From the NCBI GenBank assembly GCA_001303705.1, contig LJUI01000071.1:1-12864 (forward strand): DNA of 12,864 nt, given 5' to 3'. The notes below the pieces were generated by a model. The model saw nothing but the letters and a program-made list of their open reading frames with translations, had not been told where the DNA came from and ran no database searches. Shown here in pieces: positions 1,415 through 11,425 of this stretch. The position numbers and the translations under genes are program-made. The DNA comes from a candidate division TA06 bacterium SM23_40. Lineage in GTDB: Bacteria > LJUI01 > SM1-40. How positions within the stretch are numbered: position 1 is the first letter of the stretch; the number at the start of each line of letters is the position of its first letter.

Positions 1415-1914
1415 CCGTCTTGTGTTCCGCTCTCTATTTCGAAATCGGGAGCTCGGAAGTACGGGGAGCCATCGTAGACCGTGATGACGGTGTCTGCGCG
1501 ATCCTGGTAGAATGCGTACAGGCAGATGGTATCGCCCGGGCAGAGAGTCCGTTCAGGGCACGGGAACTCCGGCTGGTCGCAGTCCAACCAGTATGTCGAA
1601 TACCAGCCCGCGCCGAAGTCTTCGAGCAAATGCTCGCACGCCTGGCTCCCGTAGTGAGTGATCGTCTCCCAGATCGTATAGCGACACGTATAGAACCAGT
1701 CGTTCTGAGGGTGACTGATGAACACCTGAACGCCATTCAGGGGCTCGCCGTCTACCCTCACTCTCCCATAGACCATGGGTGGACGTAGTCCGGGTCAGAC
1801 AAATATATCGAGGCAGTTGAACTGAGGACACCCGCTCTTCTCGATCGCGTGCATCGACGGCGCAGCTGCAATCGAGAGGAGCAGGGCACATAGCCCGAAG
1901 ACGCGGTACATCAT
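1408..1914 (-). CDS. Small secreted protein of unknown function with one in-frame TGA at codon 40
   Basis: Reading from the ATG at 1914, the frame has a clear signal peptide (MMYRVFGLCALLLSIAAAPSMHA), then IEKSGCPQFNCLDIFV, then TGA at 1797-1795. The same frame continues as PGLRPP and a further 122 residues (MVYGRVRVDGEPLNGVQVFI...) to TAG at 1408. The downstream part is Cys- and aromatic-rich (CDQPEFPCPERTLCPGDTIC), and its start resembles a carboxypeptidase-regulatory-like beta-sandwich strand. The start is well supported: AGGAAGG lies at 1930-1924, and the ATG overlaps the stop of the beta-helix gene as ATGA, implying translational coupling. The TGA could be a nonsense mutation, a sequencing error or a recoded codon. 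An alternative frame here reads LSDPDYVHPWSMGE, so two compensating indels are also possible. A restart at Met 1776 lacks a ribosome site. Function unknown; probably exported with the beta-helix protein. Confidence 0.6.
1756..1788 (-). other. SECIS-like hairpin just downstream of the in-frame TGA (candidate only)
   Basis: On the minus strand, CCCAT (1779-1775), loop GGTCT (1774-1770) and ATGGG (1769-1765) form a 5-bp stem. It extends outward with single mismatches to about 1788 and 1756, for about eleven pairs including three G-T. The apical loop starts 20 bases after the TGA at 1797-1795 and begins with GG. Bacterial SECIS elements are known to place an apical loop with a guanine in its first two positions roughly 16-37 bases after the UGA. 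The fit is real, but the model is loose and chance matches occur. Confidence 0.25.
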
Positions 1915-3620
1915 TCTGAGATTCCTTCCTCCCGCCACGTCCGTGGCATTTCTTCCTGCCAGTCGAAAGGTAAGCAGCCTCCGGGGGAGAGTGTTTGCGT
2001 CAGCACGTCGCTCTGGGCTTCCGTGTGGAATGTGGAACCCAAGAAGGTTCCATTGACGACGTCGAAGCTGAAAGACGCACTATCCCAGATGGATGACATC
2101 GAAGTTCCGATCTTCCCGATATACAGGTACGTGCCGAGAGGAGCTCCTTGCGGCACCAGATGACTAACCTCGAGCGTGACAAACGAGTCGGCAGGGGCCA
2201 CGAATTGCGTTGGAGTAAGTGCGGGCACGAGCGGCCCCTCCGGAATTCTCACCGCGGCTGCGAACAGGCCCTCATGATCCTCTTCTGTGATATTACTCAT
2301 CTGGGCAGCATACGTGAGTTCCTCACCTCGAAGGAGCACGGTCGAGGTGGGGAAGAGATCGAGGAGTACGAGTGGTGGCGCCTCCAGCTCCCAGGGATCG
2401 AAGTCGATATGGCTTCCGACGCTCTCTCCCTGGCCTCGCGGATTTGACAGCTGATGATATGGCCCTGTGGAATCGCCCCACCAGTTACCGGTGGCATCGA
2501 CATCATCGAGGACCGGGAGCCAGTTGTACACGGCGTCGCCGTCGTTTTCATATAGAACGCAGTTGTGTATGTGATTGCCGCCGGCACAGACGACGCCTCC
2601 TATCGACGATCCGGACGCATTGTGTGAGATGCGGCTGGCATCGAGGTTCAGGTTACCCTGCGAGAAGATGGCTCCCCCGCGCTGGCCGACCCGGTTGTCC
2701 GTAAAGACCGTGCCATTCACTATCACGGTGGACGTAGCATCACTGTACAGACCACCACCATTCCTGGCACTATTGGCGACAAACTTGTTGAGGATGAGTG
2801 TCACCGAGCTGGTGTCGGTGATCCCCATCCCTCCACCCCGATCCACGGGACTCACGTTCTCAGCAAATCCGTTCCGCTCGATCAACACGGAGGTGGATCG
2901 GACAATACTCGCCCCTCCTCCGAGGACGGCCGCGTTGTTGCTGATCACGTTGTCACGTATGATAGCGCTGCCCTCTTCGACAGCGATGCCACCGCCGCGG
3001 CAGGTCGAATGGTTGCCTCGTACGGCATTCTCCACAATGAGCGGTGCTGCGCCCACACCGACGTATATCCCGCCCCCGGACTCGAACGCCCCATTCCATC
3101 GGATCTGGTTTGCGATTATTGAGGGCGAGCCCCCGAGACAGGCAATACCACCGCCGCTCATTGTACCTGGAGCGGCGTGGAAGACGGTATTCTTCATGAT
3201 GATGTTGTTCCGAATGGTGGGCGAGGCATCGATACACAAAATGCCCCCTCCGAACGAGTCGGGGGAGGCTGGGGAACCGCCTCTGATCATGAACCCCTCG
3301 ATTACGGTGATGCTATCCGATCCCTCACAGTACAGGACCCTGCCGAAGCCATGCGCCCGGATGCAGGTCACCTCTGGCCCGGCTTCGCTTGTCAGGTAGA
3401 CTCCGTTGCGGACAGCTATGTCATGCTCATGGTAGACGCCCGGCGCCACCAGTATCGTATCGCCGTACATCATCTGTTCCATTGCGTCGGCGATCGTTGG
3501 ACTGTCACCGGGCACACGTATGATTGTGGCATGAATCGCTGGGAAAGAACAACAGATGACCGTGGCTACGCTAAGCACCACAGTGCGCAGAGATATCGCT
3601 TTTCCCTGGCACGGCTGCAT
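1911..3620 (-). CDS. Secreted right-handed parallel beta-helix repeat protein with C-terminal beta-sandwich region
   Basis: A 569-residue exported protein. The ATG at 3620 is chosen because it gives a good signal peptide (Met-1 to about Ala-31, hydrophobic core RTVVLSVATVICCSF); the frame stays open to a TTG at 3749, so the start is not certain. After ATIIRVPGDSPTIADAM, a typical entry to right-handed beta-helix proteins, come about eight coils. Each is marked by GGG at about residues 124, 156, 182, 209, 234, 262 and 288 and GG at 315 and 341, a period near 26 residues. The helix ends in the signature ATGNWWGDSTGPYHQ (376-390) and HIDFDPW (404-410). Residues about 415-525 look like an Ig-type beta-sandwich. 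No catalytic residues of a known polysaccharide lyase are evident, so a surface or adhesive role, or carbohydrate binding, is inference. Its stop overlaps the next gene's start (ATGA). Confidence 0.85.
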   Translation of the reverse strand: MQPCQGKAISLRTVVLSVATVICCSFPAIHATIIRVPGDSPTIADAMEQMMYGDTILVAPGVYHEHDIAVRNGVYLTSEAGPEVTCIRAHGFGRVLYCEGSDSITVIEGFMIRGGSPASPDSFGGGILCIDASPTIRNNIIMKNTVFHAAPGTMSGGGIACLGGSPSIIANQIRWNGAFESGGGIYVGVGAAPLIVENAVRGNHSTCRGGGIAVEEGSAIIRDNVISNNAAVLGGGASIVRSTSVLIERNGFAENVSPVDRGGGMGITDTSSVTLILNKFVANSARNGGGLYSDATSTVIVNGTVFTDNRVGQRGGAIFSQGNLNLDASRISHNASGSSIGGVVCAGGNHIHNCVLYENDGDAVYNWLPVLDDVDATGNWWGDSTGPYHQLSNPRGQGESVGSHIDFDPWELEAPPLVLLDLFPTSTVLLRGEELTYAAQMSNITEEDHEGLFAAAVRIPEGPLVPALTPTQFVAPADSFVTLEVSHLVPQGAPLGTYLYIGKIGTSMSSIWDSASFSFDVVNGTFLGSTFHTEAQSDVLTQTLSPGGCLPFDWQEEMPRTWREEGISE

Positions 3621-3827
3621 CCTCGATCCCCCGGGACGTACCAGTCGCAGCGAGAGAGCCACATCTCGCAGCGACACCGCAGTAGGCAAACTCGCAGTCC
3701 CGCCCCTCCGATCCCGAGGCTTGCTCACACGCGCTGACGGCCGCACCAACGGAGGAGCTAAGTGGCCCTGAATAAATCACATCTGCTGTCGCCAGTGCTC
3801 ATGTCGCGGTTGTCATCACGGAGAAGG

Positions 3828-4459: not shown

Positions 4460-5170
4460 TCACAGGGTCGATAAGTATGCTATCAGCTCGTCGATCTCCT
4501 TCTCAGTGAGCGAGGCTCTGAAAGATGGCATGTTCCCGAACGGGTTGATCAGCTGCTGCCTGATATTCTCTGGTGTCGCCGGCCTTCCGCTCTGAGGGAG
4601 CGTTTCCCTCGTAAGGACTTCTCTCAGTCCGGGGCCCAGTTTCCCCTGATCGCTGTCGGCATAGTGGCAGTAAGAGCACTTGCGAGCGAAAAGCATCCGA
4701 CCGTTCTCCACCTCAGGAGAGAGGCGGGATGCGGCACCTTCCTGTGGGGGTGTCGGTTGGCCGCCCGCCCCGACAAGGAAGAAGTACCCTGCAGAGGTGG
4801 TGTAGACCACGAATGCGAGGACGAATACGGCCAGCCCCAGGGAGGGGACGAATCTCATGAACTCCCGGTAGAACCGGACGATGGCGATCTTGAGGACGAG
4901 GACGATGAATAGAGTGAGAGCCAGTACTCCGTGAAAGACCGCTCTCACGGATAGCCCTTCGCCCGCCATCTTGACGTATGCAAGACAGAAGTAGCTGATG
5001 ACGAGGAGCAGTACGAGGAAGATGCCGCCGAAGATCTTGTGGAGACGCCTTAACACGACTGGACTCATCTTCCTCTCGGCTCTGCCCATCAGAGCTAGCA
5101 TTAGGATCACGGCCACCAAACCAGCGGCCAAAAAGACCGTCGCCAGTATCGACTTGGACAGCAGTGCCAT
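4460..5170 (-). CDS. Four-helix membrane protein with C-terminal monohaem cytochrome c domain
   Basis: A 236-residue fusion. The N-terminal half has four hydrophobic helices at about 7-28, 46-66, 77-98 and 108-133. His-44 (RRLHKIFGG) and His-80 (AVFHGVLAL) sit at the edges of helices 2 and 3, positions where cytochrome b561-like proteins may bind haem b; that role is inference. A Pro/Gly linker (GAGGQPTPPQEG) leads to a class I cytochrome c domain with haem motif CSYCH at 165-169 and probable axial Met-214 (FGNMPSF), ending in a typical helix (EKEIDELIAYLSTL). The cytochrome domain would face the periplasm. Likely role: electron transfer across or along the membrane. The start is supported by GGAGGG four bases before the ATG. 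It follows the lipoprotein cytochrome by 38 bases. Confidence 0.85.
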   Translation of the reverse strand: MALLSKSILATVFLAAGLVAVILMLALMGRAERKMSPVVLRRLHKIFGGIFLVLLLVISYFCLAYVKMAGEGLSVRAVFHGVLALTLFIVLVLKIAIVRFYREFMRFVPSLGLAVFVLAFVVYTTSAGYFFLVGAGGQPTPPQEGAASRLSPEVENGRMLFARKCSYCHYADSDQGKLGPGLREVLTRETLPQSGRPATPENIRQQLINPFGNMPSFRASLTEKEIDELIAYLSTL

Positions 5171-5208
5171 CTATCCCTCCGCTGCGCCTTTTCCACTCTT
5201 ACCGGGGT

Positions 5209-5640
5209 CTATTCCTCTATCGGCGCTGGCTTCACGGATGCCACGTACGCCGTGAGGTCAGCGAGTTTCTGGTCGTCCCAGGCGAGCGCCTCGCCCTCCA
5301 GGGGATTGACGATGCACCAGTTGTTTACCTGGCTCAGAGTCATGACGCGCGTTGCCATGCCGAAGTACTTGGGATACTTCGAGCCGAGGTCATCAAAGGC
5401 GCGAATGGTCATATCCCCCATCTTGCCACCCTTTGTGCCCCCTTCCATGTGGCAGGAATTGCAGGTCATTCCGCTCGTTCCCAGGCTCTCGTCATAGAAG
5501 AGCTCTTTGCCGTGCTCTACCGATGCCGCGAGCTCTGCCGTGGGGTCGACCTCCATAGCCTCCTCTTCCTGTTTTGCGCAGGCAAACATGATGAGGGCCA
5601 GAAGCACGAATGCCGAGATGATCACCGTAGCCTTCTTCAT
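5209..5640 (-). CDS. Monohaem cytochrome c lipoprotein, SoxA/TsdA-like
   Basis: A 143-residue exported protein: Lys-Lys start, hydrophobic core, and Cys-21 in a lipobox-like MFAC, so it is probably lipid-anchored. The haem c motif is CNSCH at 60-64. Downstream, LSQVNNWCIVNPLEGEALAW (102-121) and a closing helix (KLADLTAYVASV) resemble the SoxA/TsdA branch of cytochromes c. There a cysteine about 43 residues after the haem-motif His serves as the distal ligand in thiosulfate dehydrogenase. Cys-109 lies 45 residues after His-64, so His/Cys ligation is plausible; Met-95 and Met-100 are alternatives. The likely role is periplasmic electron transfer, possibly in sulfur chemistry. The start has an excellent GAAAGGAGG eight bases upstream. 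First gene of a probable operon with the membrane cytochrome. Confidence 0.85.
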   Translation of the reverse strand: MKKATVIISAFVLLALIMFACAKQEEEAMEVDPTAELAASVEHGKELFYDESLGTSGMTCNSCHMEGGTKGGKMGDMTIRAFDDLGSKYPKYFGMATRVMTLSQVNNWCIVNPLEGEALAWDDQKLADLTAYVASVKPAPIEE

Positions 5641-6649: not shown

Positions 6650-6987
6650 GGTATGGCACCCTCCTGTTGAATGGCCGGGTGGCGCTCCGAGTATCCAATG
6701 GCACCCGCCGCATCGAGCGGACCGGCTGACTCAGTACCATCCGCCACGCGGTGAAGACGGTCGTGCATCGCGCACGACACGCCCAGCGCTGATATGGCTA
6801 GGGCACCTCCTCTCGCTAGCGATAACCGCGTTGACTCCGACGCTGTTCCCGATCACGGGATAGCCAGGACATTCTCCGGGGGCTGGCCCGACCCGGATCT
6901 CTCTCCTGGACAGGAATCTCCCTATGGGCTCAGGATTACGAGAACTATAGCGACCAGAGCTATGGCGGTCAAGGGGGAATCGAGTCT

Positions 6988-7011
6988 GGCGCGTGTGGAG
7001 GACCACGCGCC
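6988..7011. repeat. 8-bp inverted repeat upstream of the transporter promoter
   Basis: GGCGCGTG (6988-6995) and CACGCGCC (7004-7011) form a perfect inverted repeat with an 8-base spacer, ten bases upstream of TTGACA at 7022. Both flanking genes are transcribed away from here, so it cannot be a terminator for either. An operator, perhaps for a metal- or redox-sensing regulator of the transporter, is the likeliest reading, by inference. Confidence 0.45.
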
Positions 7012-7021
7012 CAAAAGGAGC

Positions 7022-7051
7022 TTGACACGCCGTACGTGGCTGATCTACCAT
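7022..7051 (+). promoter_or_regulatory. Probable promoter of the cation diffusion facilitator gene
   Basis: TTGACA (7022-7027), an 18-base spacer and TACCAT (7046-7051): a perfect -35 box with a four-of-six -10 box. Transcription would begin near 7058, about 42 bases before the GTG at 7100. This fits that start and argues against starts further upstream. Confidence 0.45.
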
Positions 7052-7099
7052 CCTGCGACCCCCGGCCTCACTGCTTGGCCGGTCGGAGGAAGGAATTCG

Positions 7100-8323
7100 G
7101 TGGACAGAGGCGAGAAGGTTGCAATCCTGGCCGTTGTCGTCAACCTGCTTCTCTTTGGCCTGAAATACATCTTTGCAGAGCTTTCCGGCAGCATCGGCCT
7201 GAAGGCGGAGGCTTTCGATTCACTCTCGGACGTGGTGGCATCGGCCACGGTCTTCGGAGGTCTGAAGCTGGCGAAACGCAAGACGGATCTCTTTCCGTAT
7301 GGGCTGTACAAGATGGAGAACCTCGTCGCCGTCCTCGTGGCGTTCGCCATCTTCTTTGCAGGCTACAAAATAGTAGTGGAGGCTACGACGGAGAGGCCTG
7401 CCTCACTGCAAAATGTGGGGTGGGCGGTAGCGAGCGTCGTCTGCGCGATAGTGATCGCGTACGGATTCTCGCGATACGAGGCGAGGGTGGGCAGGGAGAT
7501 CAACTCGCCTGCTCTGACGGCTGATGCGGCTCATATCAGCATCGATGTGTTCGCGCACGGCGTAGTGCTGGTGGGGCTACTCTCGAGCCTTGCGGGTATC
7601 AACCTCGACAGGATCGCCGCGTTCGTCGTCGTACTGTTGATCTTCTGGGCCGGCGGCAGAATCTTTCTGAGCGGCATCAGGGTATTGCTGGATGCCTCCC
7701 TGGACTACAAGACGCTGAGGCTGGCCGAGGAGTTGATATCGCGAGAGGCTGAGGTGATCCAGATCCAGGACCTCGTGGGGCGGAGTTCCGGACGCTATAC
7801 CTTCATCGAGGCCAACATCGTGCTGAAGACGCGCGACCTTCATGAGGCGCATTCGGCGGCGGACCGGATCGAGAAGAGCATCAAAGAAGAGATAGCCAAT
7901 GTCGACAAGGTTCTCATTCACTATGAGCCCATGGAGAAGGAAAACCTCGTATATGCCGTGGCTCTGGACGACGTCGACGGGCAACGTCTGTCCGATCACT
8001 TCGGAGATGCTCCTCACTTCATGCTGGTGACGGTGCGGGCGAAGGATAAGCAGGTGATCGACGAGCAGATTGTCGAGAATCCCTTCGTCGGAGTAGAAAA
8101 AGGGAAGGGGATATTAGTCGCCGAGTTCCTGGAAAGGCAGGCTGTCGACGTCTTCCTCGCAAAACAGCCGTTCAAGAGCAGAGGCCCTGCATATGTCTTT
8201 TCCGCTGCCGCCATCGATATCCATCAGACAGATGAGGAGACGGTGGAGAAGGCCTTAGAAGGTCTCGGGATCTCTGTCAGCAGCCTCGATGCAAGTCATC
8301 AGGGGCGCTCGGAAGACGACTGA
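7100..8323 (+). CDS. Cation diffusion facilitator (FieF/YiiP type) fused to a NifX/NifB-like cofactor-binding domain
   Basis: A 407-residue fusion. GTG at 7100 is chosen because GGAGGAAGGA lies at 7085-7094 and the protein then begins as CDF proteins do (DRGEKVAILAVVVNLLLFGLKY). The membrane part (about 1-200) carries Asp-40 and Asp-44 (DSLSD) in helix 2 and His-145 and Asp-149 (HISID) in helix 5. This Asp/Asp/His/Asp set is the transport site of E. coli FieF, which exports zinc and iron in exchange for protons. Residues 203-277 form the usual cytoplasmic alpha/beta domain. An added domain follows (about 284-395: VYAVALDD, RLSDHFGDAPHF, ENPFVGVEKGKGILVAEFLE). It matches the dinitrogenase iron-molybdenum cofactor family, whose members carry Fe-S or Fe-Mo-S clusters. 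Likely role: metal efflux with a metal- or cluster-sensing domain; substrate is inferred. Confidence 0.88.
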   Translation: MDRGEKVAILAVVVNLLLFGLKYIFAELSGSIGLKAEAFDSLSDVVASATVFGGLKLAKRKTDLFPYGLYKMENLVAVLVAFAIFFAGYKIVVEATTERPASLQNVGWAVASVVCAIVIAYGFSRYEARVGREINSPALTADAAHISIDVFAHGVVLVGLLSSLAGINLDRIAAFVVVLLIFWAGGRIFLSGIRVLLDASLDYKTLRLAEELISREAEVIQIQDLVGRSSGRYTFIEANIVLKTRDLHEAHSAADRIEKSIKEEIANVDKVLIHYEPMEKENLVYAVALDDVDGQRLSDHFGDAPHFMLVTVRAKDKQVIDEQIVENPFVGVEKGKGILVAEFLERQAVDVFLAKQPFKSRGPAYVFSAAAIDIHQTDEETVEKALEGLGISVSSLDASHQGRSEDD

Positions 8324-9569: not shown

Positions 9570-9603
9570 GGAGAATGATCTCATAGCGGACCCATCATCC
9601 TCC
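9570..9603. terminator. Imperfect hairpin across convergent gene ends, weak terminator candidate
   Basis: GGAGAATGAT (9570-9579) can pair with ATCATCCTCC (9594-9603) with one mismatch and a 14-base loop, spanning the junction of the convergent genes ending at 9569 and 9581. The right arm lies inside the permease coding end and there is no T run, so this is only a candidate. Confidence 0.25.
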
Positions 9604-11425
9604 GTCGCTCCCCCAGGAGTACAACATCCCGCAGGGCCTCCTCACTTCTGGCAGCCATCCACCTCTGTTCGAAATGGGGATCACGTACTATCTGCGCTAT
9701 CGCCGCCAGCGCGCGGAGATGAAAGTTACGTTCATCTTTCGTTCCGACGAGAACGAAGACAGCGTGAACGTCCGGTGCCGATTTGGAGAATTCAGCTCCT
9801 TCCCTGCAACGAGCCATCAGGATCTGAAATGTGCGCTCTCCCTCGATGATGATGTGCGGGATCGCGAGGTGGGGCGTGAGTGCGGTACTGCTCTCCTTCT
9901 CTCTCTCCTGAAGGAATCTGAACAGAGTATCTGCCTCGACATGTAGATTCGGCGCCATCTTATCGGCGGCCAGCCAGAATAGGTCTTCTGCTCCCATCCG
10001 CTTCTCGATATCCAGAACGATACCCCGCTCAATCACACTATCGAATCGGTCACCGACGAGATCATCTCGTTCTCTGATGATCTCTTTCAGCTCAGTCTCG
10101 AGCGAATGAGTGGTGAGTTCTCGTGCCGTGATCCGCTCGACGAGATGGAGGAGTGCATACTCCCTGCCTGTCCTGATTCTTCCATAGAACCAATAGACGA
10201 ACAGACCGCCGATGACGATAATGAGGCTGGCGAAGAGTGCCTCTCTGCCCATGCCGAAGAGAAGGACGCCGAAGCCGATGATCCCGATGATCTGTATCCA
10301 GGGATAGAGGGGTGCGCGGAAGAGCGGCTGGTAGTTCTGGAGACGGCTCTCCCTCAGGATGATCATCGAGAGACAGGCGAATAGATAGGTGAGGATGAGG
10401 ACAGTCGAGGCTACCTTTACGAGGACGTCCAGCCGCAGAAAGAGCACCAGGATCGTGAACGCGCCCGTGACTGAGAGCGAAACGTACGGCGTCCTGAACC
10501 TGCGCCCGATCCTCTGGAGGAATTCGGGGAGGAGCCCGTCTCTGCTCAAGGCGAGCGGGTATCTGGAGGCGGCCATGATCCCAGCGTTGGCTGCAGAGAT
10601 GAACGCAAGAATGGCGGCGATGCTCACGAGGATCCTGCCCCATGAACCCATGAATGCGGCCGCTCCATCGGAGATGGGGGTGAGGGAATTGTCGAGGTTT
10701 GCGGCGCCGAGGACTCCGGTCGTTACGAAGACGACCACTATGTACAGAAGGCTCACGACAAGGAGGGTGAGGATCATCCCGAGGGGTATGACCCGCCCGG
10801 GCTCCTTTATCTCTTCCGCAACGCTCGCAACCTTCAACAGACCTCCATACGAGACAAAGACGAAGCCCGCAGTGGAGAGTATGGCAAGGGCGCCTCTGGG
10901 AGCAAACGGTTCGAAGTGATGGAGCTGCACCGCGGGCAGGCCGCGAGCAGCATACAGCAGCAGGACAGCGAGGACGCCGGCTACGAGAATCACCTGCGTT
11001 CTGCTGGCCACGCCGATTCCGAGGAGATTGATCGCGACGAATGCAAGACAGAAGAGCAGAGCCACGACGTGCATGTCGATGGCCACGAATTGAGACACAA
11101 CCGCGCCCAATCCGACCAATGCGAGCGCGCCCTTCAGAGAAAGGGAAAACCACATGAGGAGTCCGTCAGCCGTACCGACTGCGGGCCCCATTGTGCTTCT
11201 GACGTAGAAGTACGTCCCTCCGGCCTTGGGCATCGCTGAGAGCAGTTCGGCTTGGCTCAGCATTCCCGTGATCGCCAGGAGCCCGGCCAGAAGGTACGAT
11301 ACGAAGACGGCAGGGCCGACCTGGGCGTGGGCCAGCCCCGGGAGCACAAACAGCCCTGAACCGATCATGGCCCCAGCGGCCAGGGAGAAGACATGGAGCA
11401 GACTGAGCTCTCTTTCGAGTTTCAT
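9581..11425 (-). CDS. APC-superfamily amino-acid permease fused to a PTS EIIA (fructose/mannitol-type) domain
   Basis: A 614-residue fusion. Residues 1-420 form a typical twelve-helix amino acid/polyamine permease: helix 1 carries the broken-helix motif GAMIGSGLFVLPG (18-30), and KAGGTYFYVRSTMGP (67-81) and EEIKEPGRVIP (204-214) are family signatures. After a charged linker (421-461), residues about 462-610 resemble a PTS EIIA type-2 domain. His-524 in HLAIPHI (519-525) is placed like the phosphorylated histidine of that family, and NFHLRALAAIAQIVRD (567-582) matches its conserved helix. Permeases of this kind import or exchange amino acids. The EIIA part suggests control by phosphorylation from a PTS or nitrogen-PTS relay, which is inference. 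The ATG at 11425 has only a fair ribosome site (AGGTAGG). No clear promoter was found; the repeat cluster at 11552-11657 lies upstream. Confidence 0.88.
   Translation of the reverse strand: MKLERELSLLHVFSLAAGAMIGSGLFVLPGLAHAQVGPAVFVSYLLAGLLAITGMLSQAELLSAMPKAGGTYFYVRSTMGPAVGTADGLLMWFSLSLKGALALVGLGAVVSQFVAIDMHVVALLFCLAFVAINLLGIGVASRTQVILVAGVLAVLLLYAARGLPAVQLHHFEPFAPRGALAILSTAGFVFVSYGGLLKVASVAEEIKEPGRVIPLGMILTLLVVSLLYIVVVFVTTGVLGAANLDNSLTPISDGAAAFMGSWGRILVSIAAILAFISAANAGIMAASRYPLALSRDGLLPEFLQRIGRRFRTPYVSLSVTGAFTILVLFLRLDVLVKVASTVLILTYLFACLSMIILRESRLQNYQPLFRAPLYPWIQIIGIIGFGVLLFGMGREALFASLIIVIGGLFVYWFYGRIRTGREYALLHLVERITARELTTHSLETELKEIIRERDDLVGDRFDSVIERGIVLDIEKRMGAEDLFWLAADKMAPNLHVEADTLFRFLQEREKESSTALTPHLAIPHIIIEGERTFQILMARCREGAEFSKSAPDVHAVFVLVGTKDERNFHLRALAAIAQIVRDPHFEQRWMAARSEEALRDVVLLGERRRMMGPL

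Follow-up and report, generated by a model that had tools for sequence, protein, structure and literature searches.

A probable orphan selenoprotein gene in a candidate division TA06 bacterium, with an in-frame TGA and a hairpin type shared with recognised selenoprotein genes

Does the single TGA at codon 40 of an otherwise open 168-codon frame break a gene, or does it encode selenocysteine (Sec)? The frame lies in the window (the whole 12,864-nucleotide stretch analysed here, contig C14 of a 2.88 Mb draft assembly in 189 contigs from a deep-branching bacterium). Selenoproteins have mostly been found through Cys homologues or general SECIS models (reviews PMC9312934, PMC12013277), and orphans such as this candidate will probably be overlooked or taken for truncated genes in annotations. 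Based on the coding signal, the selenocysteine machinery of the genome, and a hairpin type common to its recognised selenoprotein genes, we consider it likely that the frame is a single gene for an exported, Cys-rich protein, 168 residues long, in which residue 40 is selenocysteine.

A single coding frame across the in-frame TGA

The strong start originally predicted for this gene was found again: a ribosome site (GGGAGGAAGGA, with a 5-nt anti-SD match) directly precedes the ATG at 1914, which shares an ATGA overlap with the terminal TGA of the upstream gene, and a signal peptide can be read from the translation (Table 1). The upstream beta-helix gene matches NCBIfam TIGR04247 at 2.8e-9, far below the cut-off, along with a weak POMP repeat match; the TTG listed as its start probably lies too far upstream. 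Translation of the candidate (MMYRVFGLCALLLSIAAAPSMHA-IEKSGCPQFNCLDIFV-(TGA40)-PGLRPPMVYGRVRV...) agrees with the predicted single TGA, after which 128 sense codons lead to a TAG at 1410-1408. The mature part of the protein contains 8 Cys in addition to the proposed Sec40, which is set in the context CLDIFV-U-PGLR.

We trained a codon log-odds model on the genome's own long ORFs. It gave the candidate frame +5.0 for the 39 codons that precede the TGA and +14.7 for the 128 that follow. The other two minus-strand frames were negative on both sides, opposite-strand frames reached at most +1.3 over the whole gene, and all three frames were near neutral right at TGA40. The halves before and after TGA40 are a single coding frame, and the UGA sits in frame within it, as in bacterial selenoprotein genes. 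Paired frameshifts, suggested by an alternative frame reading SDPDYVHPW, are made unlikely by these frame-specific scores, and that alternative frame stops again soon after.

Table 1. Features of the candidate locus (window positions) and recognised selenoprotein genes of the same genome (positions prefixed by sequence label)
Feature	Location	Strand	Description	Hairpin after TGA
Candidate selenoprotein gene	1408-1914	minus	168 codons plus TAG stop; predicted exported	
In-frame TGA, codon 40	1797-1795	minus	proposed selenocysteine codon; context GTC-TGA-C	
SECIS-like hairpin	1765-1779	minus	stem 1779-1775 / 1769-1765 (5 pairs), loop 1774-1770 (5 nt, GGUCU); 20 nt from TGA to loop	CCCAT-GGTCT-ATGGG
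Putative signal peptide	1846-1914	minus	residues 1-23; cleavage probably follows ...SMHA	
Downstream ORF from internal ATG	1408-1776	minus	122 aa; second gene in a two-gene reading	
Upstream gene	1911-3749	minus	exported right-handed beta-helix protein, NosD-like repeats; weak profile matches	
SelD			CAG-U-ASK; Pfam support	TCGTGCA-GGTTC-TGCACGA
Peroxiredoxin	L041:7676-8410 (TGA at 7964), also L035	plus	FTFV-U-PTEL, peroxidatic Cys position; Pfam support	GGCAGC-GGTC-GCTGCC
HdrA, first	L052:2536-3825	minus	DCSI-U-ILxPK	CGGATGTC-GGTC-GACATCCG (in one of the two HdrA genes)
HdrA, second	L052:7122-9641	minus	DCSI-U-ILxPK	GGATGTC-GGTC-GACATCC (in the other HdrA gene)
TlpA/redoxin-like exported protein	L045:2-679 (TGA at 478)	minus	STT-U-PGC (UxxC); contig edge; Pfam support	GCAGAGGA-GGC-TCCTCTGC
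Omp28-like exported protein	L006:1715-2865 = L022:1715-3229	plus	LFTNYA-U-TGC (UxxC)	CCAACA-GGG-TGTTGG

Selenocysteine machinery and recognised selenoprotein genes

Machinery for both synthesis and insertion of selenocysteine is present in the candidate's own genome. The original prediction had proposed a search for selA, selB, selC and selD as a check, their absence being the main point that would speak against it; SelA (558 bits), SelB (392 bits) and SelD (374 bits) were all recovered above cut-off, together with a tRNA-Sec (anticodon tca) just upstream of selD on contig C58, and the SelB and SelA genes are neighbours on contig C5. The tetranucleotide composition of the window contig is ordinary for this genome, its similarity to the remaining contigs being mid-range, and the contig is not an obvious contaminant. 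Elsewhere in the assembly, contig L077 (C157) has a clearly lower tetranucleotide correlation (0.72) and is possibly a contaminant or mobile element.

In-frame TGAs were identified in six recognisable proteins, namely SelD, a peroxiredoxin, two HdrA, an exported TlpA/redoxin-like protein and an exported Omp28-like protein (Table 1). The name HdrA and the Sec position of these two proteins are presumed; Pfam finds the expected FAD/ferredoxin domains in both and a C-terminal FlpD domain in the longer one. The Omp28-like gene lies directly downstream of selD and matches Pfam Omp28 at 1.9e-7, just under the cut-off. Since no paper in the literature collection searched combines “Omp28” and “selenoprotein”, this UxxC protein may represent an undescribed selenoprotein family. 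Molybdopterin oxidoreductases of the formate dehydrogenase type gave no match in this genome. Given in-frame TGAs at catalytic positions alongside the machinery, which is the standard evidence, we infer that this organism inserts selenocysteine in these other genes.

A common hairpin type follows these TGAs. All six recognised genes have at least 5 Watson-Crick pairs closing a loop of at most 5 nt that starts with GG, 17-32 nt after the TGA, and the loop is GGU[C/U] in four of the six, as in the candidate. The two HdrA genes lie on one contig and have near-identical hairpins, and the TlpA/redoxin-like gene has an 8-bp hairpin 17 nt after its TGA. The candidate resembles the peroxiredoxin in local context (FV-U-P and GTC TGA CC in both, with a GGUC loop after 17 nt in the latter), and the base after the TGA is C in these two genes and in the TlpA-like gene. 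The peroxiredoxin clearly belongs to the AhpC/TSA family, its Sec occupying the peroxidatic position, whereas the candidate shows no AhpC/TSA match; the common FV-U-P is probably due to chance. The GTC-TGA-C context also occurs in E. coli fdhF. The exported TlpA/redoxin-like and Omp28-like proteins likewise combine a signal peptide, Sec and a GG-loop hairpin, and exported selenoproteins are thus not exceptional in this organism; they differ from the candidate in carrying UxxC and in belonging to a recognisable family, or a partly recognisable one in the case of the Omp28-like protein.

The candidate hairpin and alternative readings of the TGA

The bSECIS model for bacterial selenoproteins requires a loop of 3-9 nt, a stem of 4-16 bp, a G in the first two loop positions, a distance of 16-37 nt after the UGA, and an energy of -7.5 kcal/mol or lower (PMC13188914). 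The GGTCT-loop hairpin noted in the original prediction was confirmed, and it agrees with the stem, loop, G-position and spacing terms of this model, with a stem that is short. How its energy compares with the published cut-off depends on the stretch that this cut-off refers to, the values being -4.4 kcal/mol for the bare hairpin and -13.5 with the lower stem. In unconstrained folding, a competing structure without the hairpin reached -15.3, i.e. 1.8 kcal/mol better, and the 58 nt after the TGA were no more stable than shuffled sequences (z = 0.24). Rfam gave no match, even at E = 10. It is the loop and the position of the hairpin that are significant; its stability is not. A weak hairpin alone does not exclude function, however, since the local hairpin of the Omp28-like gene is about equally weak (-4.7 kcal/mol), while those of the other recognised genes range from -8.9 to -11.9.

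To estimate how often such hairpins occur, we sampled 775 kb, or about 27% of the assembly, and counted as GG hairpins those that lie 16-37 nt after the triplet and in which 5 or more Watson-Crick pairs close a loop of up to 5 nt beginning with GG. GG hairpins follow 1.3% of 23,664 TGAs, 1.2% of TAGs and 1.2% of TAAs, and were found at 8 of 516 long-ORF ends; the GGU[C/U] type follows 0.15% of TGAs and was found at none of the 516. The candidate hairpin belongs to both types. When in-frame coding on both sides was also required, seven sites passed, six TGA and one TAG. The TGA sites correspond to five recognised selenoproteins and the candidate, SelD, with a short part upstream of its TGA, failing, and the TAG site, the only TAG or TAA success, resembles the junction of two long genes rather than a broken gene. 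Scaling this single success to the number of TGA hairpins, one would expect about 2 false TGA sites among GG hairpins and about 0.25 among those with a GGU[C/U] loop. Hairpin rarity nonetheless overstates the case, because the hairpin itself had drawn attention to the site. With a site picked partly for its hairpin and a false-positive rate resting on few counts, we do not go beyond calling the selenocysteine reading likely.

Among the alternatives, a recent nonsense mutation converting a sense codon to TGA, and leaving either a fresh pseudogene or a gene truncated in this strain, survives best, yet we regard it as unlikely. It is compatible with the otherwise intact frame, the orphan protein and a position 40 devoid of redox motif, but needs a chance TGA exactly 20 nt before a loop type this scarce, one that also marks selenoprotein genes of the same genome, and the scan offers no comparable broken gene at a TAG or TAA. 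An assembly or base-calling error, whereby the codon is in truth a sense codon or the site is flanked by a pair of compensating indels, would be conceivable in a draft of this kind; codon usage, however, shows no frame change across the site, and the same hairpin coincidence would again be required, making an error quite improbable. The original assessment that a nonsense mutation or base error was at least as probable as selenocysteine insertion now looks too cautious: insertion, then considered possible, is backed more strongly by the machinery and by six genes with the same loop type and spacing, without being proven.

We give as little credence as to a sequence error to the existence of two genes, i.e. 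a 39-residue leader ending at the TGA and a 122-residue protein starting from ATG 1776, perhaps translationally coupled. Although this in-frame ATG lies only 6 codons past the TGA, no ribosome site precedes it (best anti-SD match of 3 nt, vs 5 at 1914), the first ORF would consist of little beyond a signal peptide, and the second, Cys-rich, would be left without one. Readthrough by general recoding or a suppressor tRNA found no support and is scarcely credible, because long ORFs end in TGA more often than in any other stop codon (83 of 165 complete ones in the codon-model set and 281 of 516 in the 775-kb sample), in agreement with the earlier view that general recoding is unlikely.

Homologues, predicted structure and possible role of Sec40

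No homologue or paralogue of the candidate protein was detected in its own genome, in 386 genomes across the domain, or in the two phyla (82 and 40 genomes) that look closest when judged by methionyl-tRNA synthetase, an enzyme that matches there at best at 59%. Pattern scans of genome and viral contig collections, and searches of plasmids, phages and the PDB, yielded only short chance matches, and Pfam and NCBIfam gave no match up to E = 10. This absence is not surprising, because the genome is the sole member of its phylum in the searched collection, but it also means that there is no Cys/Sec pair, which would be the strongest test. Compared with bacterial bSECIS selenoproteins (PMC13188914), the candidate is alike in its in-frame UGA, followed within 16-37 nt by a small hairpin whose loop opens with G (GGU), and in the selA, selB, selC and selD genes of its genome, and unlike in its short stem and in having no Cys homologue, known family or canonical redox motif. 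A thioredoxin-fold or peroxiredoxin selenoprotein was considered and rejected, with no family profile match and no CxxU, UxxC or TxxU motif at Sec40. Single-sequence AlphaFold produced a mostly stranded model with a mean pLDDT of 46, too poor to place Sec reliably, and Foldseek returned no match at E 0.001 or better; hence we do not claim any fold.

Insertion of Sec at UGA40 is probable given the shared hairpin type. Translation would start at 1914, coupled to the upstream beta-helix gene, and SelB carrying Sec-tRNA-Sec would bind the downstream hairpin (CCCAU-GGUCU-AUGGG), such that Sec is inserted at UGA40 instead of termination. Without selenium, the product would be a useless 39-residue stub. 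The finished protein would be exported, and Sec40 would then lie close to Cys29 and Cys34, where the first predicted beta strand ends. The proximity of these two Cys in the sequence leads us to guess that Sec40 may act with them as a redox residue or metal ligand. More tentatively, and with some doubt, the protein might represent a lineage-specific family of exported selenoproteins that are small and rich in Cys, are predicted to fold as all-beta and lack CxxU and UxxC, and in which Sec chemistry is not of the thioredoxin type; Sec could for instance serve in a metal site or form a selenenylsulfide with Cys29 or Cys34.

The candidate is thus a probable, if not proven, orphan selenoprotein with no known relative. 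If the selenocysteine reading is true, the known selenoproteins gain an orphan exported member, from the only genome of its phylum in the collection. It also suggests a practical way of ranking orphans, in which the hairpin is calibrated on the genome's own recognised selenoproteins and TAG and TAA sites serve as controls.

A syntenic locus was also sought through a neighbouring gene (6794-8323, plus strand), which encodes a cation-efflux transporter with a Nitro_FeMo-Co (NifX-like) domain fused to its C-terminal end. In the genome collection this transporter had a single, distant match, on an Aminicenantes contig at 38% identity. Other genes of the window include a pair encoding exported cytochrome c proteins (4460-5640, minus strand; DUF6529 plus cytochrome c, and SoxA/TsdA-type) and an amino acid permease that carries a fused PTS EIIA-type domain at its C-terminus (9581-11425, minus strand).
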